This document shows positions 5,600 through 31,113 of a stretch of 64,000 nucleotides of DNA, one piece after another. Source of the DNA: Gigantopelta aegis. Its lineage: Eukaryota > Mollusca > Gastropoda > Neomphalida > Peltospiridae. Below the pieces are notes generated by a model. The model ran no database searches. It was given only the letters and a program-made list of their open reading frames with translations, and was not told where the DNA came from. The first letter of the stretch is position 1. Every line of letters starts with the position of its first letter. The stretch spans positions 14,969,955 through 15,033,954 of the forward strand of contig NC_054713.1 of the NCBI RefSeq assembly GCF_016097555.1, read 5' to 3'. The position numbers and the translations under genes are program-made.

Positions 5600-6310
5600 T
5601 ATCTGTCTCAATCGATACCACCAACATTTGTCAGAGGTTGATGACCAGGATGGGCATACTTGAACCTTCGGTGGATATAGGCACGAAAATAAGACTTTTG
5701 GTTGGTTGGCTCAGAATCACTCGTGTCCATTCTACAGAAGTCAGAGGTTGTACCCACAACAGGCGTGCTTGAACAGGTTTTTGATGGAGGGTAAGCAGGC
5801 CAAAAATGAGCCATACCCATCTCCGGCAAATCCTGTAATAAGCATTTTCCAAACTTGACTTCGATATGTCCTAGAATAGAAGTCAGAGGTTGTACCCACA
5901 ACAGGCGTGCTTGAACAGGTTTTTGATGGAGGGTAAGCAGGCCAAAAATGAGCCATACCCATCTCTGACATATCCTGTAGTTGAGCACTTTCCAAACTTG
6001 TCTTCGATATGTCCTAGAATAGAAGTCAGAGGTTGTACCCACAACAGGCGTGCTTGAACAGGTTTTTGATGGAGGGTAAGCAGGCCAAAATGAGCCATAC
6101 CCATCTTTGACATATCCTGTAATTGAGCACTTTCTAAACTTGTCCTCAATATATATCCTAGAATAGAAGTCTGAGGTTGTACCCACAACAGGCGTGCTTG
6201 AACAGTTTTTTTGATGGATGGTAAGCTGGTCAAAAAATTATTCAAACCAATCTCCGACAAATATGGTACTGATAAGCACTTTCCAAAGCTGTTCTCGAAT
6301 ATCTGAATAT
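5600..6310 (-). repeat. ~142-bp tandem repeat downstream of the FAM181-like stop codon
   Basis: Four units with starts near 5738, 5880, 6023 and 6167 (period 142-144), each containing cccacaacaggcgtgcttga and a 'gccaaaaatgagccataccc' segment, plus weaker edge copies. It lies 14-700 bases past the stop codon, so it is probably within or just beyond the 3' UTR. Open frames run through in several phases because the unit length is not a multiple of three; I do not read it as coding. Confidence 0.8.
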
Positions 6311-6323
6311 TTTCCACTTAGAT

Positions 6324-6585
6324 TCATATGTGCATAACTAACTCAGACAACATCTGTGCATAGTTCGTGTCCGTGCTGAGTGAGGGCAACGTTACGGACT
6401 TACCGCCGTCGCCCTTCACGGTTATCACTTGTAACGACGTATTGCCGTATATGGGGTTCCGACCGTTTTCTAACGACAACTGAGGAAAGAGTTTTTGTGA
6501 AACTGCGTCTACCAAGTATGGGTCATCTGTTCCTATCAAACCGACCAAGTTGTTAGGATTCTTAGGATGAAGAGCTTTCTTCGGC
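6324..6585 (-). CDS. FAM181-like gene, exon 4 (C-terminus and stop)
   Basis: After a pyrimidine-rich acceptor (gttttctttttcag) the exon reads PKKALHPKNPNNLVGLIGTD onward and ends LSELVMHI-stop (TGA at 6324-6326). It supplies the P-K-K that completes the GRPKK basic motif. The rest (242-324) is of mixed composition with no transmembrane segment and no domain I recognise. A 142-bp tandem repeat begins just downstream. Confidence 0.8.
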
Positions 6586-9500
6586 CTGAAAAAGAAAACA
6601 AACAAAAAAAGTTTAAGAGCTCAATAATAAATGTACTCTTGTTACCAACATTTTACTGCACAAATTTACAAATCTAATTGATACAAGTATTGCTTATATA
6701 GCTAATTGGTCTTTTCGTGGTCTTGCTTTGACATGTGATTTTGACATCGTGTGTATTGATGCATACGGTCGCTGTCTACTCTGGCACTTCACGCTATAGA
6801 ACTTTGCATTATGTAATCTAGTGGGAAGACATATTACAAGTCAGAGGTGTTATTAGGACTAAATTGGATAGTTTTATATATGGCAACACTGAATGTCAAT
6901 ACACAGCCATGGTAGCTTGAATTTTGTTTATGCTTTGAAAATAACGATATCCTGGGAGAAATGTTTTTCCCACAGGAGACTTGATCAAATACCGGGAGTC
7001 TCCCGTGGAATTCGGGAGGGTTGACAAATCTGCTCAGTATGTATATACTAAAGGTGAGGTCACACAATATGAGTGCTTTGTACGAGAATAGCTGCTTGCA
7101 ACAAGACAAACATTATGACTTCATCAGTTGCTATTCAATCAGCTCTTTATGAATGAGGTGTCACCTTAATACCAGGAAGGAACTGTTTTATTTAACGACG
7201 CACTCAACCCCTTTTATTTACGGTTATATCGCGTCGGACATACTGTTAAGGACCACACAGATATTGAAGAAGGAAACCCGCTGTCGACACTTCATGGACA
7301 TTCTTTTCAATTAGCATCAAGGGATCTTTTATATGCACCACCCATAGACAGGATAGCACATACCACGGTCTTTGATGTACCACTGGTACTACCAGTCGCA
7401 GTGCACTGTCGGGAGTGAGAAATAGCTCAATGGGCCCACCAACGGGGATGGATCCCAAACAGACCGCGCATCAAGCGAGCGCTTTACCACTGGGTTATGT
7501 CCAGTCCCTGGCTCATATGAACCCTGACACTATAATTTAAATATTAACATTCTCACCTTCCTCGTTTGAGATGCTGACTCGTCAACTTCTTGTCGTCCAC
7601 AACGTCGAAGAGTTGAAAGAGTAAATCTGTGTTGGCCACTGTCACCTTTCTGTCCGGACAGCGGGGCGGTCTCTTGGTTACCTCCCTTTCTTCCCGTTCT
7701 TCAGGCGGCGTTACCGGTCTTATCTCTGAAACAGAGAAAAGGAAAATGTACCCATAAGCTCAGAACTATAATTGTTTTAAGATTGATAACATCAGATTTC
7801 TCCTCCCTCCCTCCCTCCCTCCCTCTCTCTCTCTCCCTCCCTCCCTTCCTTCTCTCTTTCCCCTCTTCCCTCTCTCTCTCCCTCCCTCAACCAGGTTTTT
7901 AAAATAACCATCTGTTAAGATATCAAACAGCTTTTTTTTCTTTTTTTTCTTTTTTAACATGCCAGTGTCCTTAAAACAAACATTCCTTTCCTTTCTTTTA
8001 TTGCACTGCTCACTCGCAATGATACACTGGAATGCTACATTGTTCTTTATTGATCTGACATGTCATGAAGCCTGCTCGATCGTTTATCAATTATTTAGTC
8101 AAAGGCATTCCGATTATGTTAACCAGACATCATGTGATGGTAACAGTAAAAAGAAAATCAATGCATAGATCAGAAAGCACTATCATGTTCGCTAACATCA
8201 GGAGTATTCCATGTGTCATGGGACTGTTATAGAGATAATATTAACAGGGCTTGAGATCTAATTAATTTGGGGACAACAGGAAATTTTGTCTTTTTTGAGT
8301 GCATGAAGCTTGTTTTACCTGTCATTAAAGGCATAGACCGTACATGTAGTTTTAACCCGAAAAAAAAAGGACACTAAGTTTAGTTAATTTACAAACCTGT
8401 AACTCATTTGGATAAAGTTACAATAGAAAGAAAGAAAGAAATGTTTTATTTAACGACGCACTCAACACATTTTATTTACGGTTATATGGCGTCGGACATA
8501 TGGTTAAGGACCACACAGATTTTGAGAGGAAACCCGCTGTCGCCACTACATGGGCTACTCTTTCCGATTAGCAGCAAGGGATCTTTTATTTGCGCTTCCC
8601 ACAGGCACAAACCATGGCCTTTGTTGAACCAGTTATGGATCACTGGTCGGTGCAAGTGGTTTACACCTACCCATTGAGCCTTGCGGAGCACTCACTCAAG
8701 GTTTGGAGTCTGTATCTGGATTAAAAATCCCATGCCTCGACTGGGATCCAAACCCATTACCTACCAGCCTGTAGACCGATGGCCTAACAACCACAACGCC
8801 ACTGAGGCCAGTCAAGTTACAATAGAGTCTAAGAAGAGTCTGTGATGTTAAAACAGGAAATATCCTTAAAAATAGACTAGAACTCTATTCAATAAACCGC
8901 TACTTCTCAGACGCACATTTGTTTTTAAAAATATGAAAAATGCTATTTGTGGTACTACCAAACACCAGGATGACCAGAAACACTTCGGTTCTACGGAAAT
9001 GGATAATCTAAAGAATAAAATATAAGTAATGTTTGATTTCAGTGATCACAGCTGCTGGAGAGTTGTCAATATTCACAAATGCATTAAAAAAATAAAAAGT
9101 TATTTTAATGTAATTAAACATAACATTTCAGTGGTTTTGAAGTGAAATATTTTCAGGTCAGCATGTCTGTACTTAATTTGGGTGTGATTATTTTGAGGTC
9201 AGCATGTCTGTACTTAATTTGGCTGTGATTATTTTGAGGTCAGCATGTCTGTACTTAATTTGGCTGTGATTATTTTGAGGTCAGCATGTCTGTACTTAAT
9301 TTGGGTGTGATTATTTTGAGGTCAGCATGTCTGTACTTAATTTGGGTGTGATTATTTTGAGGTCAGCATGTCTGTACTTAATTTGGGTGTGATTATTTTG
9401 AGGTCAGCATGTCTGTACTTAATTTGGGTGTGATTATTTTGAGGTCAGCATGTCTGTACTTAATTTGGGTGTGATTATTTTGAGGTCAGCATGTCTGTAC

Positions 9501-12500
9501 TTAATTTGGGTGTGATTATTTTGAGGTCAGCATGTCTGTACTTAATTTGGGTGTGATTATTTTGAGGTCAGCATGTCTGTACTTAATTTGGGTGTGATTA
9601 TTTTGAGGTCAGCATGTCTGTACTTAATTTGGCTGTGATTATTTTGAGGTCAGCATGTCCGTACTTAATTTGGCTGTGATTATTTTGGCCACAATGTCTA
9701 TCACCTCGACTCTGATGCAATCTAAAGCCCTGACTAACATCAATTTTGTTTTGTCATAGGACAATTTAGGTCATACACTGTATAATTTATTTTATATCTA
9801 CAACCTACTATAATGCACTTTTGACTACAAGATGTATACAGTATTAAAGGGACATTCCTGAGTTCGCTGCAATTTTTAAGATGTTATTGATTAACAGAGA
9901 CTTTCTGACGACTAATTACATATCAAATATATTTTTCTGCAAAAAATATTAGTGGCTGTATATTAAACGTGTTTCTGATCGTTCTAATATTTGTACTAGG
10001 TTAAATTTCATTTTATTTCCTAAAAAGGATTTGTTTTCGTACGTACAAAATTATTTGAACAAGAAAATATATTTAATATGTAAGTTTAATCATAGAAATA
10101 TTTTATTAGTCGGAAACATCTTACAATGCAGCAAACTCGGGAATGTCCCTTTTATATCCCATGCCAAAATTCCTAATATAATGTTACAGTTTGTTTTGTT
10201 TAACGACACCACCAGAGCACATTGATTCATTAATCATCAGCTATTGGATGTCAAACATTTAGTAATTTTGACATTTAGTCTTACAGAGAAAACCTGCTAC
10301 ATTTTTCCATTAGTAGCAAGGTATTTGTTATATGCACCATCCCACAGACAGGACAGCACGTACCACTGTCATTGACATAACAGTCATGGTGCACTGGCTA
10401 GAATGAGAAATAGCCCAATGGGCCCACTGACGAGGATCGATCCTAGACTGACCACGTATCAAGCAAATGCTTTACAACTGCGCTAAGTCCCGCCCCATGT
10501 ATAATAAAAGACATGACTGTATTCTTATGAAAAATTCCTTTCGGTGGCGTCGTGGTTAGGCCATCGGTCTACAGGCTGGTAGGTACTGGGTTCGGATCCC
10601 AGTCGAGGCATGGGATTTTTTAATCCAGATACCGACTCCAAATCCTGAGTGAGTGCTCCGCAAGGCTCAATGGGTAGGTGTAAACCACTTGCACCGACCA
10701 GTGATCCATAACTGGTTCAACAAAGGCAATGGTTTGTGCTATCCTGCCTGTGGGAAGAGCAACTAAAAGATCCCTTGCTGCCTGTCGTAAAAGACTAGCC
10801 TATGTGGCGACAGCAGGTTTTCTCTAAAAAAAACAGTGTCAGAATGACCATATGTTTGACGTCCAATAGCCGATGATAAGATAAAAAATCAATGTGCTTA
10901 GTGGCGTTGTTAAATAAAAATATTTTTACTCTTTTTTTGTTTCTTATGAAAAATTCCTTTCAGAATGCTAGCATTACAATGGTATGCTGAATTTGATTTT
11001 ATCATCTTCTAGGCTAAATTATCCAGATGACGATATTTAAAGGACATTAACTCTACGTAGATCACACTAACAATACATGAAAAAAAAACCTAAAAAAACA
11101 ACACTTGTTATTCTGTTCTCCTTGGATACAATTCACCACTGAAAACAAATGTCAATATCCGAGCTTATGACCATAAACAAATTTAACGACTGATACACTT
11201 AATGCACGCATGCTATGTACAGTATGGTGCTCTGCCAAAAGCTATGAATGAAATCATGCACCCAATACCAATCTAGATTGTGAACCGACTTGTAACATTG
11301 GCGACATTATCTTATAAACATGTGTCGTGTCACCATAGAGCATTCCATTCAACAAGTGGGACAGAAATAATGGCGCCACATACAGATCCATTTATATACC
11401 TCGTGTCGGTGTTTGACTACCATTAAAGCCTGCTTTTGAGTGTTTGCCATATCATAAATACAATACCATATATTTATAAAGGTAATGTTAACCAGAGCAG
11501 AAAAAAGCAAGCTGTAGCATGCTTACCGTACACGTGACTCAAATAAACAGCTGCCAATTTAAAGGTTAATTTTATTAGAAGAACTTCCTTGGTGACGACT
11601 ATTTTTGAATGAACTTGTGAACTTATATTTAAAAGTCATAAATAGAGATTATAAATAGTTATATTAGGGATGGGACAATGTTTAAAAAAAAAAAGTTCAA
11701 TTTGATTTTCAATATAATTATTTGATCCACGGTTCAATTTATTCACAATACTTTCTACAAGAACACCAGCTATCACACATACTTTTTAATAAACTATTAT
11801 AAGAGCAATAAATTAAATTTTTAATGGTCACTTGTAATCTAATTGTAAATAAATGTATAATTAAAAGAAAAATTACAGGACAAAACTATGCAGTATGTAT
11901 TTTTATATTCATATATAAAAACTATATGGTACTGAGCAAAATAATTTTGGCTAAAATATTTTCATTATCGCTAATAAAAATCCCATTTGACAAATGTTTT
12001 CTTTACGGGTCTTTTTTTATCCAGGGTGAGCCCTGCTTGTATGTCTTGACTAGAAAACAACAATATAACTTTTACCGTTTTATCACACCATGCAGGGCCA
12101 TAGCTAGGCTTTTTTTTTTTTGCTTTTTTTGGGGGGGGGTAGGGGGAGGGGGGGTGCAGATGAATTCTGTGCATACCTAAAATGCTTCAGTTAAGAAGAG
12201 ATTTTTCCATTATTTTTACCAGATTTTTTTAGCAGGTCAACTGTCCAGAACAGTGTGTTAGTTGTTAATTGTTAATGGTTAGTGAGAGAAAGAAAGAAAG
12301 AAATGTTTTATTTAACTCAATTCATTGTATTTAAGGTTATATGGCGTCAGACATATGGTTAAGAACTACACAGATATTGAGAGAGGAAATCCGCTGTCAC
12401 CACTTCATGGGCTACTCTTTTCGATTAGCAGCAAGGGATCTTTTATATGCACCATCCCGCAGACAGGGTAGTACATATCACGGTGTTTGATATATCAGTC

Positions 12501-15500
12501 GTGGTGTATTGGCTGGAACGAGAAATAGCCCAATGATCCCACCTACGGGGATTGATCCCAGACCGACCGCGCATCGAGCGGGCGCTATACCACTGGGTTA
12601 TGTCCCGTCCTTGAATACAGCAATAATGTAATTATTGTTTTGTGTACTGTATAATAAGGGAAAGAATACAATTCAAGTATACACAACAAAAACCCACATT
12701 TACATTGAAATAAAGCTATCTCTGGTTTTTGTGTTAGTTTAGAGACTATGAATTCTTCAGGAATGGCATTTCATTTCATTTCAACTTATTTTCGTGCTTA
12801 TATCCATGTAAGGTTCAAGCACGCTGTCCTGGGCACACACCTCAGCTATCTGGGCTGCCTGTCAAGGACAGTAGGTTACTAGTTAGTTATTAGAGGTTAG
12901 TGACAGAGAAGTTGGTGTAGTGGTTTTACAACTACCCATTTCATTTAAACTTATTTCTGTGCTTATATCCAATTAAGGTTCAAGCACGCTGTATTGGGCA
13001 CACACCTCAGCTATTTGTTCTATCTGTGTTCAGGACAGTGGGTTAGTTGTTAATTGTTAGTGGTTAGTGAGAGAGGAGACGGTGTAGTGAGCTTATACCT
13101 ACTCATTGTTAAAACTTGCTCTGGGTGGGAGCCGGTACTGGGCTGTGAACCCTGTACCTACCAACCTTATGTCCGATGGCTTAACCACGATGCCACCGAG
13201 GGTGGCCAGGAGTGGCAATCTGAGCAGAAGATTATATAAAAGAAACTCTCCTCCCCCACACTCCCCCCAAAAAGGGAAGTAAAATAAAATCGGTATCACC
13301 TTTATCATATATTAGGAATAAACATTGTATTGTGCTAGCCTCTGGCATTATTTTTATTCCTAATATATGTATGATCTGATTCAGCATACTGAGGTTTTTC
13401 TCTAGCAGGTGAAAGGTGGTAATTTTGAGGGCTACTGCAGTCTCCACTGCTGCCTACCTTTCATGCTTACTATAATACATCTGAATCCTTTCAATAACTA
13501 TAACCACCTTCTTTGTACAAAAATATTTAAACATCCTTCAAACTGGTTTATCATCATTATCAATATCATTGTCATGTATAACCAATATATCAAGTATGTA
13601 CAATAAAAGTTTGACATCACTAGAGCACATTGATTTATTAATCATTGGCTATGGTAATTTTGACATATAGTCTTAGAGAGGAAACCCGCTACATTGTTCC
13701 ATTAGTAGCACAGACAGCTAGGACATGGACTGGAATTCAAAGGAGAGAAAGGAAAGGGGGCAGTGGGCTACAAAAAAAAATTATCAATATAATTGTCATC
13801 ACAATTATCATCAACATCATCGTCATCGTGATCATCACTACTAACATCATCATCAATATCACAGTTATCACAGGGCTCAAAATAGCAAGTAAAAAATGGC
13901 CAAGAGAAATACATGCATGTCCTGCTATAAGAAAGAAATACAGCCTGCTAGAAATAAGACAGCAGTGGGTGAGGGAAGGATTTAGGATAGTGTGTGAAAA
14001 GATTTGAACCTCTGAGACATATTTTAAAACATTATGGGATTAGAAAATAACAGTAAAGTTTGTTTGTTTTGTTTAATGACACTACTAGAGCATATTGATT
14101 TATTAATTATCAGCTATTGGATGTCAAACATATGTTCATTTTTTGACAGTCAGAGAGGAAACCCACTACATTTTTCCATTAGTAGCAAGGGATTTTTTAT
14201 ATGCACCATCCCACAGACAGGATAGCACATACCACGGCCTTTGTTATACCAGTTGTGGTGCACTGGCTGGAAAGATAAGACAATAACAGAACCATGACAT
14301 AAATAGTAGATAAAATAATCGTACATACATATGTCCCTTTAAAAATTACCTGCAATATTTAGCAAAATTAATTTCTATTTAAGCTACTAGGCATAAAAAT
14401 GGACTGCTTGTCACTGTTTAGAGGCCACTATTTAGAACTCTACATCATCATTATCATCATGATTGTATTTGTTTCTCATCATCACCAACATCATCAACAC
14501 CATCATCATCACCACCACCACCATCACCACCACCACCACCACCACCAGCAGCAGCAGCAGCAGCAGCAACATCATCATCATCAACATTAATCTGAATACA
14601 ATGTTATGTTTACCTGTAACATCTTCCTCTGTCTCCTTGTTGTACAGTGGCGGTAGAATCGGAAACATGTTGCCAGGGGAAACCTGGTGAGGGACGTTCG
14701 GCTGCTGCCAGAATGATTGAGGCAAGGCCCGTAATCTCATCGGAACCTGGTCTGTGAGAAATAACAAATAAGTATGATAACAACAGACTATAGACTTTAC
14801 TATTAAAAACATAATCTTATCAGAACTTGGTGTGTGAGTAATAGACCGGCCTCGGTGGCATCGTGGTTAAGCCATCAGACATAAGGCTGGTAGGTACAGG
14901 GTTCGCAGCCCAGTACCGGCTCCCACCCAGCGCAAGTTTTAACAATTTAATGACTAGGTATAAGGCCACTATACCCTCTTCTATTTCACTAACCACTAAC
15001 AATTAACAACTGTCCTGGACAGACAGCTGAGGTGTGTGCCCAGGACAGTGTGCTTGAACCGTAATTGGATATACCATAAGCACGAAAATCAGTTGAAATG
15101 AAAATGAAATGTGGAAATAATACACCAGTATGATAATGACTATGAAATTAACTTCATCAGAATTTGGTCTGTGAGAAATAATACACCAGTATGATAATGA
15201 CTATAAAATTTACTTCATCAGAATTTGGTCTGTGAGAAATATTAAACAAGTATAATAATAACAGACTATAAAATTTACTATAGAACACATAACCCATCCT
15301 CATCAGAACTTAATTGGTCTGAGAGAGAAAAAACAAAAACAAGTATAATAACATTAAACAATAGAATTTACTATTAAACAAACCATAACCTTATCAGAAC
15401 TTGATCTGCAAGAAATAATAGACAAGTATAATAAAAACAAACAATCAAATTTACTGTAGAACCCATAATCTGTCCTCATCAGAACTTAATTGGCCTAAGA

Positions 15501-21500: not shown

Positions 21501-24500
21501 GATCAGATGTCGTCTGTGGACCTGTCAGAAACATTTTTCCCTATGCCATCTAGTGTTAAATGACTGGTATATTAAAGGTCATTGTGCATGTGCTGTCCTG
21601 CATATCAAAAAGTGCATATAAAAAAAAATCCTTGCTGCTTTTTCGGTCTCTTGCATATGGGGAAATGGTTTCTTTGATGATGCACTCAACACATTTTATT
21701 TATGGTTATATGGTGTCAGACATATGGTTAAGGACCACACAGATATTGAGGGAGGAAACCCGTGCATTGGGGGGGGGGGGGGGAGGAGGGGACTTATCTC
21801 AGTTGGTAGAGCACTTGCCCAAGGTGCTTGGGACATGGGATTAAACCCCACTGATGGATCCATTGGGTTTTTCCTGTTCCAACCAGTGCCAAACAAGTAC
21901 AATATCAAAGGCCATGATATGTGCTGTCCTGTTTGTGGGAAAATATATAAAAAGATCCCTAGCTGCTAATTAATGTTAAATGTAGGTTTCTTGTACAGTA
22001 TGAAAATTATTGTATGTTATACATCTAATAGTCTATTATTAATTAATCAAAGTGTCATTAATTTGCTATAGCCTTGATGAACACATACATGTAGGGGTGG
22101 GTATTAAGTAAAAATGTTGTTTTAAATTTCATTGAAGAAAAAAGCATGCGCTTATTTAAAAAGAAATTTTTAAAAACACCCCTGCAAACTGTTTAATCAG
22201 TTGCCAGTAGGAAAAGAAAGGAATGTTAAAGGGCACCCCAGCACGTTCTTTAATCAGTGGTTAGTAGGAAAAGAAAGGAATGCTTTTTTAAAAGTTTATT
22301 TTTGTTTAACGACACCACTTGGGCACATTAATCAATCAATCATTGGCAACTGGATGTCAAACATTTGGTAATTCTGACATGTAATCATCGGAGGAAACCC
22401 ACTACATTTTTTCTAATGCAGCTAGGGATCTTTTATATGCACTTTCTCACAGACAGGAAAGCACACACCGCAGCCTTTGACCAGTTTTTCCTAATGCAGC
22501 AAGGGATCTTTTATATGCACTTTCTCACAGACAGGAAAGCACATATCACGGCCGTTGACCAGTTGTGGTGTACTGGATGGAACATGAAAAAAAAAATCAG
22601 TTGAATGGATACACCAAGGTAGTTCAATCCTGTGATGCAAGCACCTCAAACGAGCACTCAACCAACTGAACCACATTCTGGTATAGACATGGTATAGAGA
22701 GAAAAACCTGTGAATGACAGGTAACCTATCTAATTGGTGATTAACTGCTTTTGATCTTTTATCAGCACTTCCTACTTTAGACAGGCCTTTGATATATATC
22801 AGCCATGGTGTACTGGTTGGAATGGGATAAAACAATAATTTATGGGTTTATCCACCAAGAGGGATCCTATGATACATCACACCTCAGACAAATATCTTCC
22901 ACTGAGTCCTAGCAATTGGGTATTTAAGAATGTGACTGTATTGTAATTTGAATATTAGGCCTAAAAAAAAAAAAATTAGTGTTTCCGGCTTCCCGATTCA
23001 CCCTAACATTATGTAGCAACCCTAAAATTTTGAAAGCAAAAAAAAGTATTAATTTTTTATATTTTTAATGTTTTTAAAAATCATGCTGCCTGATTTTTTG
23101 CAACCAGCAAACCAGATTTAGAACACCTCAGCTGATTACAGTTTATCGGTTTGATTAGATTTAAAAAAAACAAAAACAAAACAACGTTTCTACCTACCTA
23201 CCCTATTTTCGTCAAGGATGAAACCTGAAACACATATCTTTTTTTAGGCCTTAGTGATGTTCCATTGATCAATTATAAGTGAAACTTGATTGGATGCTTC
23301 CCACGATACGATGATTAATTACTGAAAGCCCATGATCAGCTGTCGCTGAAAAGGTCAACTGTATAATTGTTCCTACAGTTTCAATGACGATGGAATTCAC
23401 GTAAATATGTTTAGGTCTGCTATCTTTCTTATTCCCAATCACTCCCCTGAGTCTAAGGTCAACGACAGTCACTTTCTGCACACTCTTGTTTTGGCTTTGT
23501 ACACAATAAATATAACATATCTTACTGCAATTTCACTCAAAATCCTTATTTCGTAAAAGGTACAATTTTTTAATCAAAAGATTTTCTTCAAACACATTCA
23601 GGTGCATTAGTAATGTTCAAACAAAATAATTTCAATAGCAATTCTGAATTGGAATTTTTTAAGTGTTCTTAAAACAGAAACGGAAACGGAAACATATTCA
23701 GTTTATAGTTATTGTAAGGAGATGCAAAGTTATTGGAATACTGACATCATTCAAATTAAAAATTAGCTATATTATTACAATGATTTGCCACATTAAAATA
23801 AAAACTGGTCTATTAACCTTAACCCCTGTCAAAATTCTATAACAACCAGACAACACTGTTTACAGGTCAGTATGTTTTTATTTTTCATAATTCTGGACAA
23901 AATATTACTTTTAAGTTTTAAAAGATGAAAGAAATAAAAAATTCCATTTGTCAAATATATCATATCAAAAAATTACCATTGGATATGTTTTATTTATTGT
24001 GTACGAAGCTAAAACAAGGGTCAGAAAACTGGCTTTCGTTGAACTTCAAGAAGAGTAATTTTTAGCTATCCTTAGAATGTTAATTTATATGGTAGGCCTA
24101 TCAATATGGTAATATCTTAAACTGATCACTCCCCTAAAAATAATTCATGATAAGGACTGGGTTTGGGTTTGTTGCCAAATGTACATTAAAAAAAACATAT
24201 ATTCAGTAGGTATTAAATGTAATATTAGCAATTTGTATGGGTTGTGTTCTTTCCACTGAAAATGTTTTCAGGTAACCTATTTGACTTTGCATAAACCATT
24301 GTGGTCAGGTACATATCATATCATAAATTTAATGCATGAACAAAATGCATAAGAAAGGAAGGATATGTGTTATTTAATGATGCACTCAACAGATTTTATT
24401 TATGGTTATATGGCATCAGACATATAGTTAAGGACCACACAGATATAAAGAGAGGAAACCTGCTGTCACTCCTTCATAGGCTACTCTTTTCGATTAGCAG

Positions 24501-27500
24501 CAAGGGATCTTTCATATGCATCATCCCAGACAGGATGGTACATACCACAGCCTTTGTTACACCAGTTGTGGAGCACTGGCTGGAATGCGAAATAGCCCAA
24601 TGGGCCCACTGATGGGGATCGATCGTAAACCGACCGCACATCAAGCAAGCGCTTTACCACTGGGCTACGTCCTGCCCAGTTAACGCATAAGGACTCGTGT
24701 CAGGGAATATCTGGTTTTAAACATTTTGATTTGCAACAGTTGTTAATTGATTAAGAATCGATTAGCAGCTGCTATTTAATGTGTAGAATTGTTTAGCAAT
24801 CTCAGAAACTAGCGATTCGTGACGTGATATTGAACAAAATGTTTCCTGCAAGTGCAAGCACTGTGCAAACAAAACAACATTGCATGCACATAATTTTGAG
24901 ATGTAATAATTTATTTATAACTAGTGATTTTTCAAAGGCTGTGAAAGCTTTTAGTGACCTAAGTGCACTGACTGCTTGAAATGTCCATATCATCTTACTT
25001 CTGAACAACACAGGGGATAACCGCATGTGGGTAACTGTAGTTACTCGCATCCAATATGGCTGACGACGCACATGATGAGTATTAATCACTGTGCATTTCC
25101 ATACTTCTAAGCATTACGTTCACATTTTAACAGAGTGTATCGGCAGTTGGTTTAGTATGAATATATTTTGAATCGATGCACTAAGGATATGTTGTGTAAT
25201 TCAGCAGATAATGAAATCAGAAAGTTAGGCATGATGAAGGTAACTTCGAAGCGATGATGTAGGTAACTGTCTAGTCAGCTTCAGATGGGATGTGGGTATC
25301 TGACAAAAGGGATTCGGATAACTGCAATGATGAGTGTAGCTGTAGGATGAGAGTAATTGCTGTACTTGTCTCTTCATAACTAATGATCGCCATATGCATC
25401 TAGAAACAATTAGTAAAAACATTATTCTTGTATTTTTCTATTCATTTTCTTTTTTAGATTATTACATGTGCTATTTGTGCGATACATCCTCCGCCCGAGC
25501 CAATACTATTTTAACACACACCATCGAAATGCACACTGGGGCCATTCAAATATTACGTAACGCTGAAGGGGTGGGTGGGTGTAGGTTCAAATGTTATGTG
25601 GCGTTATGGGGGGGGGGGTATTTAACATTATGTAACTCACTATTTTTTACTATTACTTCTTTTTCTATTCTTTTTTTTTCCATAAACACTGTATGATAGC
25701 GACAATGCTTAACGTAGGCCTAGTTAGTTATAGGTAGATGTATACACTCAATGAAGATTATAAATCGAGTTGAAATCGGTATCTGTGCCATCCCAAATTG
25801 CAAAACAGTACGTTAAAATTACATTACACCCATCGCATGACTTGTTTGTGAATGGTGGGGGGGGTCCAAACGTTAGGTAATTTTTGGGGGGACATATGGT
25901 CTAGCTTTACGGAGCGTTACATAGAGGAGACTAAACGAGTTCCCGTGTGAGACCGTTTAGATTACGAGTTTATTTTTTATTTTTTTAGTTGTAATATAAA
26001 TGGTCTCACACGGGAACAAGTATAGTATTTCATTTATTACACTGCACATCAATGAACAAAAATTATGTCATGTTGTAGCTACTTCATTTAGCTATTTATC
26101 AATGAAACTTTGCATTCCCATACCATACATCCATACAGGCTGAACTAAATTATTAAAATATATATTTTGTTAAATTATGCTGCTAACATTAATTATACAT
26201 AGCAAGTATTTTTCCGATTTAAACATACGAATCGAAAGAACCATGTGCACACTTTTCGCATAACATCTATGCGGAGTTGTACTGTGTGACACCTCTGCTC
26301 ACGTGACCGGAGGTAATGACCTCTCAAAAGATGTATTTTCACGTGAAGAGACGACAAATATCACATGGCTATCTCTTCCACCGCGGTGTAATAAGGGGAG
26401 GGGGGACAGGTAGGGTGTCTAATTTTTACATAATAGATTTACGTAATATTTGAACGGCCATCGGTTTAATAACAAACATTGGGGCACTAAGGTAAGTTGG
26501 AGGGACACCAAGGCAAACCTTTCCTTCAAAAGAGGGGCACGAAGGCAACTTGCTTTCTATCAAGTTTCTCAATCTGATTAAAATTAGCTCTACTGGTCAA
26601 CCAGTAGATCTAACAGCATTACGTGGACTCCCATGTCCAGGTGACATTTCATCTATAAATAACAATTTAGATATTGACCAATTACACTTCGCCTTTTATA
26701 GCATTATTCGTGAGCATACAAATTCTAAAAATATCGGGCGAGACTATTTATGCAATAGGCGCACTTGTTGGTCTATTTCAACATTAAAAAAATGGGAAAA
26801 CTCTGGATTGTATACTAGTATAAACAGATTATATGGCTATACCATCACGGTTTTTTTTTGGGGGGGGGGTTTCATCTTTAAACAAATTTTATAAAACATT
26901 TTATATTGAAATTAGTTTCCAGCATACTTCGTAATTCACCCGAATCATTTCGTATACCGTCGGCATAATCCCGAATGTTTTCAAATTCTTTTCAAATCAC
27001 TGGCATGATTTTGCAAGTAAGGTTTTGATTGGTCGAATGAAAGGCCAAATGGACATGAGCTCTAACAGGGTGCTGTTAGATCCACAGGTAATTAACCAGT
27101 GGAGCTAATTTTAATAACGTTGTCAAGTTTCTCAGACAAAAATGATTTCACTTTATGATTTTGGATTCAAGCCTATGCAATTTGTTGGATACGGATGCCT
27201 TGATATGTGTGTGGTTGTCATGCATTTGTACTGACTGGACAGTAGCTCGAATGTCTTCTGGTCCCAGCCCGCGGTCACGGTCAAACTCGCGCTCTGCAAG
27301 TCAACAGCTAATAACTATATCAAATAGCAAAACTAAGTTTAGTTGAAGCACTCATACCTAAAGACATTGAACAGCATCGCACATTTGGTTGCTGTCCAGC
27401 TAAGCTCTAGTTTTTTTGGGGGGTGGGGTTTTTGTGTTTTTTATTCTCCCTTGTCGGGGCATTTCGATGTTCAACAACAAAATACATAACTGAATGGAAA

Positions 27501-30500
27501 GCGTGCGTGCGTGCGTGATTTAGTAAGGATCGGGAGTATATTTTATTTTTAATTTTGGTATAATCTGGCATTAAATTTTCGTTTGGGGTAATTGTCCTTT
27601 CATCTTTCAGAGTTTGGGTAATATGTCGGACTATTTCAATCTTGAAAGTTAATGCAAGAAGACTATAAAGACATAAAGCTACATTATATTATTACAGAAT
27701 AGAGTATGACATTACCTTCGAGTCATTTCATCTTCTATTTATATTAAAATAATCAATCACCCAATTTTGAATTATTTGCGACTTGACCGGCATTCTGCAT
27801 CGAACAGTTACCCTCATCCAATCATAACAGATACCCACATCCTCATGATGTTGACACTTTCAGTTACTAACATCACACTCGATTTTTGATGCCCGTTATC
27901 TAATTCACAAATACTATTTTTTTTAAACGTATGATTCAAAAATGCATATTTTATATATTTTATGCAGTCTCTGTATATGGACATCTCAAAAATGTCAGTT
28001 AAGAATGGAAATTCACATCGATTAATACTCATCATATGTGTCTTCTGCCATACTGGATGTGAGTAACTAGTTACCCGCATGAGGTTATCCCCTGTGAAGA
28101 TGTAGCTTGGTCAGGCGTGGATCCAAGGTGTGCATGTCCCCCATAAAAAAAATTTGCAGATGTCAATTTTTTTTAAATAATAATAACAAAAAGTCTGTTC
28201 ATACATACATCAAGGTAAAATCCAGTACTGTAAAAATTAGAATGATCAAATACTGAATTAACAGAGCCTGATATTCTAGGCAAGAAAATGTATATATGAG
28301 TTATTAGAAAAAAATAATTCAGTTTAACGACACCACTAGAGCACATTGACTTATTAATCATCGGCTATTGAATGTCAAGCATTTGGTCATTTTCACATAT
28401 AGACTTAGAGAAGAAACCTGCTGCATTTTTCTCATTTGTAGCCAGAGATCTTTTATATGCACCATTCCACAGCCAGGATAGCACACACCACAGCCTTTGA
28501 TAAATAAGTCATGGTGCACTAGCTGGAACAACAAATAAGTTATTAAAAGGACTGTATTAGTTACAAACATGTTATACACTGTTTAATGTTCCCAACCTCT
28601 TCTTTCACAAAACCCAAGATCCATGCATGTTAGTTGTCATATAATTATAGTGATTAATTTTTGTTGTCTAAAGTTTAATGGGATATGAGATTGATTCACC
28701 TAAATGGATACATTAATCTACATGTATTATTTCTTTCTTTCTTTCTTTCTTTGCAGTGTTGCATGACACAATACAATACTTAGGAAGTTTGGTTCAGTGA
28801 GACGTGGGGTTTAAAAAGTATGCAGTTATACACATTTATTGCACTGTTTTGTCAGTGGGAAAACAATCAAAGTGTGGTTCAATATTTTGCTGATCATCCT
28901 ATTACATGTATTTTATTTCCTAATATATATTTTTTCATATGTAAAAAAAACAATAATACTACCGGTAGTTAAAATCCAGTACTGCAAAAGTTACAAGAAC
29001 CATAATGTTTAATTAACAAACACAGATCTTCTTGACAAGAAAATGAATATTTAGGTAATTAAAGTAAAAGTAAAGTTTGTTTTATTTAACGACGCCGCTA
29101 GAGCACATTGATTTTTTATCTTATCATCGGCTATTGGACGTCAAACATATGGTCATTCTGACACTGTTTTTAGAGGAAACCCGCTGTCGCCACATAGGCT
29201 ACTCTTTTTACGACAGGCAGCAAGGGATCTTTTATTTGCGCTTCCCACAGGCAGGATAGCACAAACCATGGCCTTTGTTGAACCAGTTATGGATCACTGG
29301 TCGGTGCAAGTGGGTTACACCTACCCATTGAGCCTTGCGGAGCACTCACTCAGGGTTTGGAGTCGGTATCTCGATTAAAAATCCCATGCCTCGACTGGGA
29401 TCCGAACCCAGTACCTACCAGCCTGTAGACCGATGGCCTAACCACGACGCCACCGAGGCCGGTCATTTAGGTAATTAAATGCAGGAGCAGGATGTAGCCC
29501 AGTGGTACAGTGTTCACTCGATGCACGGTCAATGTGGGATCGATCCCCGTCGGTGGACCCATTGGGCTATTTCTCGTTCCAGCCAGTGCACCACAACTGT
29601 TATATCAAAGGTCTTGGTATGTACTACCCTATCCGTGGGATGGTGCATATAAAAGATCCCTTTCTGCTAATCGGAAAGAGTAGCCCATGAAGTGGCGACA
29701 GCGGGTTTCATCTCTCGATATCTGTGTGGTCCTTAACCATATGTCTGATGCCATATAACCGTAAATAAAATGTGTTGAGTGCGTCGTTAAATAAAACATT
29801 TCCTTCCTTCCTATTAGTTGAGAAAATGTTACGACAACAAATTAAAGACAAGTCTCTTTCATGTGAGTGAAAGTTGGGAAGTTTCTTCCTCCGACTCGTC
29901 CAAGTGTTCAAATAATATGACATATTAGATGTAATGGCACAAATTCAGATCCACTCACCAACCCATATTATTATTATACCCACTTACCCACCCTCTCATT
30001 CATCTGTGTTTGAATTAGATATAGGCGTGGGAAGATGCCGGTAACTGGGGGGGGGGGGGGGGGGGGGGGGGGGAGGGAGTCAAACTGGAGAAGCCAGTTA
30101 CTATTCAAATCCATATTGAGATTGTGCTTTAACTGCAGGGGAGGGGGTGGGGGAGGCAATGTATACCTTGACCACTCCAACTTCAGAGTTGGGCGGGGGG
30201 GGAGGGTCAGTTTGTCTCGCCTCTCTCCCTGCCCAAATCTTCATACAAAAGAACACATGTATGGATAAATTAGTATTACTATTAAACTAGTGAATCCCTG
30301 AAGCTTTTAACCAAATGAAAAAGAAGAGCACACTGGTTTAAAAGGGCCATTCAAATATTATGTAATGCATATTTGCACTTTACCAAATCGCTAAAATTAT
30401 ACTGCATCCATCCCATGACTTTTTTGTGAATATGAAGCGGGGGGGGGGGGGGGGAGGGGGTCCAAGCATTACATAAAATTTAGAGGTGTATGGTCTAGCT

Positions 30501-31113
30501 TTATCGAGTGTTATGAGGGGTGGGAAGGGTGTCTAATTTTGACAAATATAGCATTACGTCTAGTAACTAATATTTAAACGGCTCCAAAGCATCCCAACTA
30601 AGCATTGCCAAATGATCTGGGGATAATAATTTAAAACTAAACAACAACAAAAAAGTACACACCAAAAAACGCCAACACACAAGAGCACACATAAACAAAA
30701 TACTCACCTCTCTTTGGTCTCATTTTAGGAGGTGTCTGTTCTCTTCTTCTAAATCCATCTTTGAGCGACATAAATGGCGTTGCAGTCTTCTTTTTCTTAA
30801 TTCTTGATTTAGCAACAATCTCGTGTGCATGATGTTTAAATCCAGGTGGGCGCACATAAACAGGTCCGCTTGCCGTACTACTGGTCGGCGAAGCAACGTT
30901 TTCATAGTCATGGTCATGATCACAGCCATATGTCGAAACGGATGGACTGACGGGACGGTTTCGTGGACTTGGGTTTGGTAAGCTAATGCTATCACAGTGG
31001 TCCGTTTCCTCCTCATCACTAGAGTTAATTATCTGTATGGGACCGGAGGGTCCTCGTTTACCACCATGCGGCTTTGGCGGAGGAGGTTGCGGAAGATGCA
31101 ACGTAGTTGCCAT
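6324..31113 (-). CDS. FAM181-like protein with a YAP-type TEAD-binding module (four exons, 324 aa)
   Basis: Four exons on the minus strand (31113-30708, 14751-14614, 7725-7557, 6585-6324) have GT/AG borders and matching phases (1, 1, 2) and join into 975 coding bases. Residues 1-135 are proline-rich, with a SUMO-interaction-like stretch (IQIINSSDEEE, 27-37) and a basic run KSRIKKKK (102-109). Residues 137-154 read QVPMRLRALPQSFWQQPN; YAP has VPMRLRKLPDSFF and FAM181A has VPMRKRQLPASFW, both of which bind TEAD transcription factors through this omega loop. Residues 214-224 (TDLLFQLFDVV) resemble YAP's TDLEALFNAVM helix. KRGRPKK (235-241) is AT-hook-like. The C-terminal 80 residues match nothing I know. 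The likely role is nuclear, as a TEAD cofactor or competitor in Hippo output; that is inference. The order loop-then-helix is the reverse of YAP. The start is the first ATG of exon 1; upstream non-coding exons are not excluded. Confidence 0.82.
7175..7508 (-). mobile_element. type B SINE
   Basis: Full-length, tRNA-like head at the right (...gcgctttaccactggg), B tail at the left. It lies in intron 3 only about 48 bases downstream of the exon 3 donor, transcribed in the same sense as the gene. Confidence 0.85.
7557..7725 (-). CDS. FAM181-like gene, exon 3 (LxxLF helix)
   Basis: The acceptor is ctctgtttcag and the donor GTGAGA; 169 bases encode residues 183-237 plus split codons. An acidic/basic stretch (TPPEEREEREVTKRPP) is followed by NTDLLFQLFDVVDDKK, whose TDLxxLFxxV spacing matches the YAP TEAD-binding helix, and by LKRG, the first half of an AT-hook-like motif completed in exon 4. 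Confidence 0.8.
7797..7890. repeat. (CCCT/CT)n low-complexity tract
   Basis: ccctcccctctct-type repeats in intron 2. Confidence 0.9.
8326..9055. mobile_element. ~340-bp TIR element split by a type C SINE
   Basis: Left part 8326-8426 and right part 8814-9055 together match the intact relatives at 33318-33718 and 57383-57757 (shared: tacttctcagacgcac, caccaggatgacca, gtttgatttcagt). Confidence 0.75.
8427..8813 (-). mobile_element. type C SINE (B tail) with 12-bp target duplication
   Basis: C head at the right (inverted gggatccaaaccc, ggcctaac), B tail at the left after a (GAAA)n run. aagttacaatag flanks both sides (8415-8426, 8814-8825). It is inserted in an older DNA element. Confidence 0.9.
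9145..9690. repeat. 41-bp minisatellite, 13 copies
   Basis: The unit 'gaggtcagcatgtctgtact' plus taatttgggtgtgattatttt repeats at an exact 41-bp period from 9155 to 9647 with almost no divergence. Copies vary mainly at ggGtgtg / ggCtgtg, and two-type alternation suggests recent unequal exchange. Confidence 0.95.
9845..10163. mobile_element. MITE with aaagggacattcc ends
   Basis: aaagggacattcctgagtt at the left is inverted at the right (aactcgggaatgtccctttt); about 320 bp, no coding. Confidence 0.8.
10188..10496 (-). mobile_element. type A SINE
   Basis: Full-length; A tail at the left, head (...ctttacaactgcgctaagtcccgcccc) at the right. Confidence 0.88.
10543..10940 (+). mobile_element. type C SINE (A tail) with perfect 21-bp target duplication
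   Basis: C head at the left (ggtggcgtcgtggttagg ... gggttcggatccc), A tail at the right followed by a T-rich end. The 21-base target site starting ttcttatgaaaa flanks both sides without mismatch (10522-10542 and 10941-10961), so this is a comparatively recent insertion. Confidence 0.92.
12241..12286 (-). mobile_element. type D SINE fragment
   Basis: gtccagaacagtgtgttagt ...agtgagag matches the type D body; truncated against the next SINE. Confidence 0.6.
12287..12610 (-). mobile_element. type B SINE
   Basis: Preceded by (GAAA)n; B tail at the left, head at the right ending gggttatgtcccgtcc. Confidence 0.88.
12766..12936 (-). mobile_element. type D SINE, partial
   Basis: catttcatttcaacttattt ... 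tcaagcacgctgtcctgggc ... body of type D; its head is missing and a second D copy follows directly. Confidence 0.75.
12937..13208 (-). mobile_element. type D SINE, full-length
   Basis: Body as above followed by the head ...ccatcggacataaggttgg in inverse, ending ccaccgagg. Together with 12766-12936 it forms a tandem D-D arrangement. Confidence 0.82.
13291..13385. mobile_element. short hairpin MITE (catatattaggaataaa family)
   Basis: Imperfect palindrome: atcatatattaggaataaa on the left, inverted tttattcctaatatatg on the right. A better-preserved relative lies at 37138-37240. Confidence 0.65.
13607..13722 (-). mobile_element. type A SINE fragment
   Basis: Tail and mid-body (tcactagagcacattgattt ... 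attagtagca), head lost. Confidence 0.75.
13778..13872. repeat. degenerate (ATC/ATT)n tract
   Basis: atcatcaacatcatcgtcatc-type trinucleotide-rich DNA. Confidence 0.7.
14055..14272 (-). mobile_element. type A SINE, head-truncated
   Basis: A tail and core present (attagtagcaagggattttt), ends at tgcactggctgg before the head. Confidence 0.82.
14445..14588. repeat. (CAT/CAC/CAG)n compound microsatellite next to exon 2
   Basis: Runs of cat, cac and eight or so cag/caa triplets end 26 bases past the exon 2 donor (intron 2 side). Confidence 0.92.
14614..14751 (-). CDS. FAM181-like gene, exon 2 (TEAD-binding omega loop)
   Basis: The acceptor is ...tttctcacag and the donor GTAAAC; the 138 bases encode residues 137-181 plus two split codons. 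The exon opens with QVPMRLRALPQSFW. The residues known to matter in YAP (Met86, Arg89, Leu91, Pro92, Ser94, Phe95 and the aromatic at 96) are all present in register, with Trp at 96 as in FAM181A. A short tail follows (PHQVSPGNMFPILPPLYNKE). The intron just upstream carries many degenerate copies of this exon's acceptor. Confidence 0.85.
14737..15765 (-). repeat. array of duplicated exon-2 acceptor sites
   Basis: About ten degenerate units of roughly 60-90 bp each contain, on the minus strand, a pyrimidine tract, an AG acceptor (ttatttctcacag or a variant) and a near copy of the first ~15 bases of exon 2 (ACCAAATTCTGATGA versus the real ACCAGGTTCCGATGA). Units lie near 14737 (the true exon), 14817, 15152, 15213, 15298, 15386, 15474, 15566, 15652 and 15732. 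A type D SINE (14844-15112) splits the array. The unit clearly came from the intron/exon border of this gene. Confidence 0.8.
14844..15112 (+). mobile_element. type D SINE inside the exon-2 acceptor array
   Basis: Head gaccggcctcggtggcatcg at the left, gaaatgaaaatgaaatg at the right; splits the second unit of the acceptor array. Confidence 0.85.
16078..16838 (+). mobile_element. type B SINE, internally deleted and split by a ~555-bp insertion
   Basis: 16078-16197 carries the head (gggacgtagcccagtggtaa), a core deletion, then gcaggtttcctctct...aaccatat. The B tail resumes at 16758 (gtctgataccatataacc ... gtgtcgttaaataaaacg). What lies between is foreign. Confidence 0.7.
16198..16757. mobile_element. 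insert with a 190-bp palindrome, inside a SINE
   Basis: 16568-16755 is a long imperfect palindrome: gactccatcatatgcggtca at the left and its inverse at the right, with an inner duplicated gggacttggcaagtctcg. A second hairpin (catgcaagacaga ... tctgtcttgcatg) lies at 16212-16270. Probably one or two non-autonomous DNA elements. Confidence 0.65.
17261..17535 (+). mobile_element. type D SINE
   Basis: Head accggcctcggtggcgttg at the left, body with gtgtgcccaggacagcgtgc, tail ending in gttaaaatggaat. Confidence 0.85.
17784..18106 (-). mobile_element. type A SINE
   Basis: A tail at the left, a small tatacatgtatata insertion in mid-body, head at the right ending gggctacatcccacccc. Confidence 0.87.
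18276..18608 (-). mobile_element. type B SINE
   Basis: gaaagaaggaagg run, B tail at the left, head at the right ending ctaagtcccacccc. Confidence 0.88.
18674..18984 (+). mobile_element. type A SINE, well preserved
   Basis: gggcgggatgtagcccagtg at the left with clear A-box- and B-box-like motifs (gtttgggatcgatcc), tail ggtgtcgttaaacaaaacaa at the right. It faces the preceding B copy head to head. Confidence 0.92.
19135..19375. repeat. repeat with multiple acttgtcc motifs
   Basis: ccatggacaagtac, tacttgtccat, acttgtccactgg and aaatggacaagtgatt recur in both orientations over 240 bp; family unknown, looks like a decayed fold-back element. Confidence 0.5.
19950..20165 (+). mobile_element. type A SINE, head-truncated
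   Basis: Starts at ttctcgttccaaccagtgca, tail tgtcattaaacaaaacaaac at the right; contains a small ggtatgtact duplication. Confidence 0.8.
20566..21440 (+). mobile_element. type B-like SINE split by a Mutator-like element
   Basis: Head and core at 20566-20744 (gacgtagcctagtggtaaag), remainder at 21344-21440 (aaagatcccttgctgctaat ... gtttcctctctcaatata). The interruption is exactly the 599-bp element with a 9-bp duplication of the SINE's own aaagatccc. Confidence 0.88.
20745..21343. mobile_element. Mutator-like (MULE-type) MITE, 599 bp, ~120-bp terminal inverted repeats, 9-bp TSD
   Basis: caatctaattaaaattagct at the left is inverted at the right (agctaattttaattagattg), and the arms pair for about 120 bp (tcctgccagtgattta / taaatcactggcagga). 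aaagatccc is duplicated at 20736-20744 and 21344-21352. Long TIRs with a 9-bp TSD suit the Mutator superfamily; no transposase is visible. Confidence 0.85.
21562..21640 (+). mobile_element. SINE core fragment
   Basis: gactggtatattaaaggtca ... aaatccttgctgct matches the shared SINE core. Confidence 0.6.
21661..21768 (-). mobile_element. type B SINE tail fragment
   Basis: gatgatgcactcaacacatt ... gaggaaacccg; truncated at a poly-G run. Confidence 0.78.
21789..22060 (+). mobile_element. type E-like SINE
   Basis: Head gacttatctcagttggtaga with gggattaaacccc as B-box region, degraded core and A-like tail (aattaatcaaagtgtcatt). Confidence 0.7.
22173..22282. repeat. ~57-bp direct duplication
   Basis: ttaatcagt(t/g)g..agtaggaaaagaaaggaatg occurs twice in succession. 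Confidence 0.7.
22291..22676 (-). mobile_element. type E SINE with internal 78-bp duplication
   Basis: A-like tail at the left, E head remnant at the right (aaccaactgaaccac). The core ctaatgcag ... ctttgaccagtttt is present twice (from 22413 and 22491). Confidence 0.82.
22690..22915 (-). mobile_element. degenerate SINE remnant
   Basis: gatcttttatcagcactt, tttgatatatatcagccatggtg and ttggaatgggataaaacaat preserve the E-type core at low identity. Confidence 0.5.
22957..23253. mobile_element. MITE-like element bounded by aggcctaaaaaa / ttttttaggcc
   Basis: Inverted ends plus sub-terminal gtgtttccgg / cctgaaacac; about 297 bp, AT-rich interior. Confidence 0.5.
23269..23493 (-). CDS. orphan open frame, possible exon or decayed coding fragment
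   Basis: The minus strand reads QKVTVVDLRLRGVIGNKKDS, then RPKHIYVNSIVIETVGTII and QLTFSATADHGLSVINHRIV to a stop at 23269. Composition and codon use look more protein-like than the AT-rich surroundings, but there is no good start ATG and I recognise no family. It lies inside intron 1 of the FAM181-like gene on the same strand, so it could be a terminal alternative exon, a retro-fragment or chance. Confidence 0.2.
   Translation of the reverse strand, partial: QNKSVQKVTVVDLRLRGVIGNKKDSRPKHIYVNSIVIETVGTIIQLTFSATADHGLSVINHRIVGSIQSSFTYN
24352..24677 (-). mobile_element. type B SINE
   Basis: gaaaggaagg run, B tail at the left, head at the right ending gggctacgtcctgccc. Confidence 0.88.
25010..25390. 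repeat. repeat related in inverse to 27785-28106
   Basis: ggggataaccgcatgtgggt, actcgcatccaatatggctg and gatgagtattaatc are found inverted near 28020-28100 (cagtatggcagaagacacat-side strand); tgggatgtgggtatctgac matches its other half. A dispersed element, family unknown. Confidence 0.55.
25541..26460. mobile_element. TIR element (ggccattcaaatattacgta ends) enlarged by nested insertion
   Basis: ggccattcaaatattacgta at the left is inverted at 26440-26460. Internal blocks (catgacttgtttgtgaat, tatggtctagcttta, gtagggtgtctaattttt) match the compact 245-bp copy at 30341-30585. About 470 bp (25921-26392) has no counterpart there and appears inserted. Confidence 0.72.
25921..26392. mobile_element. 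insertion with a strong hairpin
   Basis: gttcccgtgtgagaccgttt near 25938 pairs with aatggtctcacacgggaaca ending near 26015; located within the larger TIR element. Confidence 0.5.
26570..27122. mobile_element. Mutator-like (MULE-type) MITE, 553 bp, 10-bp TSD
   Basis: Same family as 20745-21343 (caatctgattaaaattagct / agctaattttaataacgttg), with tcaagtttct duplicated at 26560-26569 and 27123-27132. Interior shares attgaccaattacacttcgc and atcgggcgaga with the other copy. Confidence 0.82.
27148..27293 (-). CDS. orphan exon-like open frame in intron 1
   Basis: After a CAG at 27296-27294 the minus strand reads (E)REFDRDRGLGPEDIRATVQ and SVQMHDNHTHIKASVSNKLH to RLESKIIK-stop. It is markedly GC-richer than its neighbourhood. 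Its 5' phase would join exon 1 of the FAM181-like gene in frame, as an alternative last exon, but one phase in three does so by chance. It could equally be a stray piece of another gene. Family not recognised. Confidence 0.25.
27785..28106. repeat. repeat related in inverse to 25010-25390
   Basis: acagttaccctcatcc, gatacccacatcctcatgat and gtgagtaactagttacccgc mirror the other copy. Confidence 0.55.
28319..28532 (-). mobile_element. type A SINE, head-truncated
   Basis: A tail at the left (gacaccactagagcacattg), core, ends at gtgcactagctggaac. Confidence 0.82.
29064..29464 (-). mobile_element. type C SINE (A tail) with 15-bp target duplication
   Basis: C head at the right, A-type tail at the left (gacgccgctagagcacattg); atttaggtaattaaa at 29049-29063 and 29465-29479. 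Confidence 0.92.
29484..29812 (+). mobile_element. type B SINE
   Basis: gagcaggatgtagcccagtg at the left, ...gtcgttaaataaaacatttc and (TTCC)n at the right; head-to-head with the preceding C copy. Confidence 0.9.
30047..30073. repeat. poly-G run of 27
   Basis: An uninterrupted G tract followed by more G-rich DNA to about 30220; length may be affected by sequencing or assembly. Confidence 0.85.
30341..30585. mobile_element. compact MITE, gggccattcaaatatt family
   Basis: gggccattcaaatattatgt at the left, inverted aatatttaaacggctcc at the right; related to 25541-26460. Confidence 0.72.
30708..31113 (-). CDS. FAM181-like gene, exon 1
   Basis: It begins with ATG at 31113 and ends before a GTGAGT donor, leaving one base of a split Asp codon. 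It encodes residues 1-135: poly-proline start, SIM-like IQII followed by SSDEEE, Ser/Pro-rich middle, His-rich GFKHHAHEIV and a basic KSRIKKKK nuclear-localisation-like run. Its GC content is clearly higher than that of the surrounding intron and intergenic DNA. Confidence 0.8.

Follow-up and report, generated by a model that had tools for sequence, protein, structure and literature searches.

A conserved animal protein family with a TEAD-type Omega-loop ahead of an LxxLF helix: candidate TEAD cofactors with motif order opposite to YAP

The stretch of Gigantopelta aegis DNA analysed here (the window, 64,000 nucleotides) carries on its minus strand a four-exon gene for a protein of 324 amino acids, which contains the exact TEAD Omega-loop motif PMRLRALPQSFWQQP and, further downstream, an LxxLF helix. 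Both motifs are conserved in this order in the relatives of the protein, and YAP and FAM181-, PERCC1- and Vestigial-like sequences were found separately in the same genome, so that the window gene represents a further family. Binding of TEAD via the loop is very likely, as judged from the sequence. We propose that the protein belongs to a hitherto undescribed family of animal TEAD cofactors of ancient origin, in which the loop and the downstream helix would constitute a bipartite TEAD grip in an order opposite to that of YAP, an explanation to which we assign an even chance of being correct.

Splice reconstruction revealed four exons with GT/AG borders and consistent phase, which yield a single frame of 324 codons on the minus strand; all features of the gene given below are located on this strand. 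Exon 1 (31113-30708) extends from the ATG to residue 135 and encodes an acidic SSDEEE patch, a conserved N-terminal block and a basic KKKK patch. Exon 2 (14751-14614, 138 nt), delimited by GT/AG borders and frame, bears the Omega-loop. Exon 3 (7725-7557), supported by frame and alignment, encodes the motif RPVTPPEE, a strand-like KVTV and the LxxLF helix, while exon 4 (6585-6324), again delimited by its GT/AG borders and frame, ends with the stop codon at 6326-6324. The four peptides named in a first-pass annotation of this DNA were all located on the minus strand within 6324 to 31113; VPMRLR, TDLLFQLF and IQIINSSDEEE can be read there directly and KRGRPKK solely after splicing. A minisatellite with a 142-bp unit (5736-6236; 3.5 copies, 93% matches) begins less than 100 bases past the stop codon and is probably part of the 3′ UTR.

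A protein search with the 324-residue sequence identified 132 proteins at E up to 1, and a profile search, in which scoring was confined to the 8000 candidates with most words in common, identified 137. The best 120 of each comprised together 134 different relatives, from which 77 were picked as near full length and aligned with the window protein (78 rows). All 78 aligned sequences showed the loop followed by the helix; this conserved order supports the joining of the exons, on which the first-pass annotation had made its reading depend. Some relatives originate from contigs shorter than 2 kb, which we infer to be transcripts if their introns are as long as those of the window gene. The loop was absent in 33 of the 134 relatives, mostly short models, and the end of exon 1 (TPPKxKxRRG, then unrelated sequence) recurred in 26 of 34 short models inspected.

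The best named relative among the matches listed was from Haliotis rufescens (60% identity over 100%); Ciona, Styela, Hydra, amphioxus, an acorn worm, a millipede, a termite, cockroaches and stick insects were also named. By phylum, we take the named matches to represent molluscs, a brachiopod, nemerteans, annelids, bryozoans, chelicerates, crustaceans, echinoderms, tunicates and a coral. The names given mostly read uncharacterized, hypothetical or unnamed, and many of the proteins bear none. Among the matches listed the family spans cnidarians to tunicates. The proposal of a lophotrochozoan regulator was therefore too narrow: the family reaches corals, Hydra, arthropods, echinoderms, amphioxus and tunicates, and its cnidarian, arthropod and deuterostome members rule out a lophotrochozoan invention. 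No vertebrate, fly or other holometabolous insect, or nematode was found among the named matches listed (best 120 of 132 and best 120 of 137). This distribution suggests, without proving it, that the family was lost in vertebrates, flies and nematodes, as it refers to the best 120 matches of each search, many entries are nameless and candidates must share short words.

The Omega-loop VPMRLRALPQSFW (residues 138-150, exon 2) forms the larger part of the interface-3 motif VPMRLRALPQSFWQQP at 14699..14746 (residues 138-153). These residues were matched by the Pfam model TEADIR3 (PF15238; Omega loop, TEAD interacting region 3) with 31.3 bits at a cut-off of 26, and the same model matched at E up to 1 in all 27 family sequences scanned, the window protein included. 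The interface-3 consensus PxxxRxLPxSFFxxP is printed in a passage of the PERCC1 paper (PMC9710580). The window protein follows it strictly in the form PxxxRxLPxSF[FW]xxP, with the last F replaced by W as in FAM181A. With F or W allowed, the consensus was present in 78 of 78 aligned sequences, all of which have L or F before the second proline (L in 75), and the segment VPMRLRxLPxSFW, on whose retention in relatives the first-pass annotation had made its reading depend, is kept in the form of this consensus. The invariant columns of the alignment include P139, M140, R143, P146, S148, F149 and P153 of this region as well as L220 and F221 of the helix. When the single sequence was searched against the PDB, the only match at E up to 10 was the FAM181A peptide chain 6l9f_C (E 0.034), aligned on the loop.

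The helix TDLLFQLFDVV, of the pattern LxxLFxxV, is encoded at 7598..7630 in exon 3 (residues 214-224, with LxxLF at 217-221), where AlphaFold2 predicted a short helix with low confidence. Its L220 and F221 were found in 78 of 78 aligned sequences, and LxxLF follows the loop in 74 of them, the remaining four having M, F or I in place of the first leucine. The spliced frame confirmed that the loop is situated about 65 residues ahead of the LxxLF helix in this Omega-loop protein, as had been claimed. Among all 134 relatives, 101 bear the loop. Of these, 96 have an LxxLF-type helix behind it, none has one solely ahead of it and five have none; this order differs from that of YAP, with interface 2 directly before interface 3. 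Four of the five proteins lacking the helix look incomplete. The fifth, P0131, has a divergent loop and the TPP and C-terminal blocks and possesses neither helix nor hook. In shuffled versions of the window protein, LxxLF arose by chance in 4.6% and LxxLFxx[VIL] in 0.8% of cases.

LxxLF is given as the interface-2 consensus in the PERCC1 paper (PMC9710580), and L at position −3 and V or I at +3 around the invariant LF fit this motif. Neither a profile of the helix only nor one of strand plus helix matched any YAP chain when the PDB was searched at E up to 10. A position-specific scoring matrix gave YAP's helix a score no higher than that of randomized controls (reached by 227 of 2000 permuted and 249 of 2000 shuffled ones) and did not place it in the LxxLF register, and hhalign against a two-sequence YAP profile gave a probability of 1.7% (P 0.03). 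The profile in native order reached YAP at E 0.0015, with the best stretches on the loop region. A profile built from 36 of 74 distinct sequences, in which helix and loop were re-joined in YAP's order, matched YAP1 at E 1.4e-7, and the alignment included the helix. In a local control on human YAP, for which 77 of the 78 sequences were used, 35.3 bits were obtained with the re-ordered profile and 25.7 bits with the loop alone. The score of 35.3 bits was reached by none of 150 column shuffles (mean 25.2; 32.7 at best) and none of seven other family blocks (23.9 to 25.8). The join of helix and loop in the re-ordered profile was chosen with YAP's spacing in mind, and the gain of about 10 bits was seen for human YAP only, being absent for the genome's own YAP and its FAM181-, PERCC1- and Vg-like sequences. 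As the tests of the helix alone were negative and those of the re-joined helix and loop positive on human YAP, we consider the chances about even that the helix would fill YAP's helix site (interface 2); its likeness to YAP's helix remains one at the motif level. Correspondence with the N-terminal helix of FAM181 was rejected, since the matrix performed no better than permuted columns (1076 of 2000 reached the B-like and 1702 of 2000 the A-like score).

A different reading of the same data is that the protein binds TEAD by its loop only, the helix being an acidic activation motif, presumably of the PhixxPhiPhi type, which would recruit a coactivator such as CBP/p300 or contact another partner without any permuted grip. 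Acidic residues flank the helix in the family alignment, no test of the helix alone linked it to YAP, and linkers of 33 to 206 residues separate loop and helix across the aligned family, so that the two do not have to engage the same surface. Moreover, the isolated Omega-loop of YAP is described in a passage of PMC7566471 as binding TEAD tighter than its strand-helix, so that a loop can be the main anchor. The fit of the residues around LF to interface 2 and the gain of the re-ordered profile on human YAP argue against this reading, which we regard as possible, though on the doubtful side.

According to the bipartite-grip explanation, a mostly disordered protein would dock on the YAP-binding domain of TEAD by its YAP/FAM181-type Omega-loop. 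It would presumably compete there with YAP, FAM181 and Vg for the same pocket, because the residues defining interface 3 are exactly conserved, and the loop alone should suffice for anchoring and competition given that YAP's isolated loop binds more strongly than its strand-helix (PMC7566471). The downstream LxxLF helix would, with about even probability, provide a second contact in the interface-2 groove via the long flexible linker. The earlier conclusion of a chain running in the other direction over the TEAD surface is unwarranted, since either motif could retain the local polarity it has in YAP when joined by such a linker; its length and variability would make both pockets reachable in either order, and the chain need not run backwards through either of them. 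The RGRP core may add a DNA contact. The output of such a cofactor is unlikely to be governed like that of YAP, because the searches revealed neither a WW domain nor a conserved LATS-type site.

Taken further, these sequences would describe an additional class of TEAD cofactor of pre-bilaterian age, its two contacts wired opposite to those of YAP and VGLL and its own DNA-contacting hook placed beside the helix, kept in corals, many invertebrate phyla, amphioxus and tunicates and lost in vertebrates, flies and nematodes. We hold this extended proposal tentatively, as having somewhat less than an even chance. Flies and mice have been the main systems for dissecting Hippo signalling. If the family binds TEAD, a further competitor of YAP has been overlooked across much of the animal kingdom, and, if the extended proposal is true, the Hippo output of many animal phyla includes such a competitor invisible in model organisms. 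The reversed order, if true, would imply that the two main pockets of TEAD are used as independent docking sites and not by a single fixed cofactor fold, and the protein would serve as a natural scaffold when considering TEAD inhibitors that reach across both pockets.

TEADIR3 was also searched over the whole assembly and gave eight matches at E up to 10, five of them above the cut-off. As the same model matched in 7 of 14 prokaryote genomes, never above the cut-off, weak matches need context. The paralogs were labelled from their architecture and from recall. One gene (L002) is presumably FAM181A-like and another (L004), with LxxLF ahead of the loop, FAM181B-like; we assume from inspection by eye that they share the FAM181-type N-terminal block. 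YAP (L005), with strand, LxxLF, loop and the start of a WW domain, is encoded by a gene separate from the window gene. A PERCC1-like exon (L007) has LxxLF ahead of a loop scoring below the cut-off. Two Vestigial-type loops (L006 and L008, the latter below the cut-off) are located on C4 at about 6.99 and 6.87 Mb; because they lie about 117 kb apart on the same strand, a tandem duplication of vestigial is probable. A further weak match (L009) probably arose by chance, and the eighth match is the window gene itself. In all paralogs with a visible helix (L004, L005 and L007) the helix precedes the loop, whereas it follows the loop in the window gene.

YAP, TAZ and Yorkie share with the window protein the interface-3 Omega-loop and the LxxLF helix; YAP has strand, helix and loop in this order together with WW domains and LATS sites, whereas the window protein has the loop first, no WW match and an AT-hook-like core. 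FAM181A and FAM181B share the Omega-loop, and SFW occurs in FAM181A as well (6l9f_C). Bokhovchuk et al. 2020 is said to be a study on FAM181. FAM181 combines a conserved N-terminal region with interfaces 2 and 3 in this order, and PERCC1 has consecutive interfaces 2 and 3 (PMC9710580). The FAM181 block is absent from the alignment of the window family and the order is reversed. PERCC1 shares both loop and LxxLF and differs in having these interfaces consecutively within about 50 residues, an order and spacing unlike those of the window family. Homologues of PERCC1 with consecutive interfaces 2 and 3 are listed for echinoderms, molluscs, annelids and chelicerates (PMC9710580), and some member of the window family may be mixed into that alignment. 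Vestigial and VGLL2 resemble the window protein in using the Omega-loop as one of two TEAD contacts; their strand-helix TONDU motif precedes the loop (PMC7566471), and for YAP and Vg/VGLL only strand-helix or strand-helix-loop arrangements appear in the passages of PMC7566471. The name FAM181 is used for the N-terminal domain of YAP in a passage of PMC8526868, a FAM181B gene of Urechis is named without sequence in one of PMC10380512, and the passages of both do not describe the window gene. We found no description of the family in the open-access papers searched.

The suggestion that this gene is the invertebrate root of FAM181 is ruled out by the two FAM181-like genes that coexist elsewhere in the genome. 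A related alternative, in which the protein is a diverged member of FAM181 or PERCC1 with changed motif order instead of a separate family, can draw on the FAM181A-like loop, which scored best of the genome's own paralogs with the family loop profile (26.7 bits, compared to 25.7 for human YAP). Separate FAM181A-, FAM181B- and PERCC1-like sequences in the same genome and the family's own N-terminal, TPPEE, hook and C-terminal blocks leave this descent with very little probability; deeper descent is beyond the reach of a tree on a 16-residue motif. A convergent loop in a protein that does not bind TEAD is highly improbable: the motif spans just 16 residues, yet PxxxRxLPxSF[FW]xxP arose in none of 20,000 shuffles of the window protein, which rules out chance for the loop, and no other decade of the alignment is as conserved as residues 141-150.

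Apart from loop and helix, several parts of the protein are conserved. The AT-hook-like KRGRPKK is split by intron 3, with its first part at 7557..7567 (residues 235-238) and its second part at 6576..6585 (residues 238-241) across the junction of exons 3 and 4. An RGRP-type core was found here and in 70 of 96 relatives, and the Pfam AT-hook model reported no match in the window protein. The N-terminal block DYENVxSPxxSSTxSGPxYVRPPGFxHH (30918-30814, residues 66-100), defined by the alignment in exon 1, contains YEN, which we take as a Grb2-SH2-like YxN pattern; DYEN was present in 37 of 96 relatives, and the block is unclear in the cnidarian rows. The motif RPVTPPEE (7720-7697, residues 184-191), seen as RP[VIL]TPP in 76 of 96 relatives, looks to us like an FBW7-type TPPxE phosphodegron and could control turnover. 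A C-terminal block without a named domain (6327..6530, residues 257-324; alignment and AlphaFold2) reads DDPYLVDAVxxKLFPxLSL ... NYxQMLSELVMHI, its last part being the second most conserved decade. The SIM-like IQIINSSDEEE of exon 1 (residues 26-36), which had been put forward as a further feature, proved weak: even a loose pattern occurred in just 11 of 96 relatives, so that a SIM was discarded as a family feature. The sequence PPLY at residues 169-172 may be a ligand of WW domains (PPxY), through which the protein could be linked to YAP itself; PPxY occurred in merely 5 of 78 aligned sequences.

The absence of a WW domain, noted before, was corroborated, as Pfam gave only TEADIR3 at E up to 10 in the window protein and no WW domain in the 27 family sequences scanned. 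A Vestigial/TONDU match was likewise absent from the window protein at E up to 10. The pattern HxRxx[ST], taken here as LATS-type site, was not found in the window protein and gave scattered matches in 3 of 78 aligned sequences. In the AlphaFold2 model built from the 78-row alignment (mean pLDDT 56.8, pTM 0.23) most of the protein is disordered; the model shows a short helix at residues 215-220 and a C-terminal alpha-beta-beta-alpha unit at 260-323, whose ten-residue blocks have pLDDT values of 60-89; Foldseek and VIA-align revealed no convincing match to the predicted fold.

Elsewhere in the window, overlapping plus-strand frames at 52770-53655 resemble a broken Tc1-type transposase, with weak helix-turn-helix matches below the cut-off. 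A dispersed repeat resembling NVLFNDALNTFYLRLYGVRHMVKDHTDIE in one frame was observed on both strands at 7170, 18216, 21622, 24340, 29711, 35744, 49895 and 50499.
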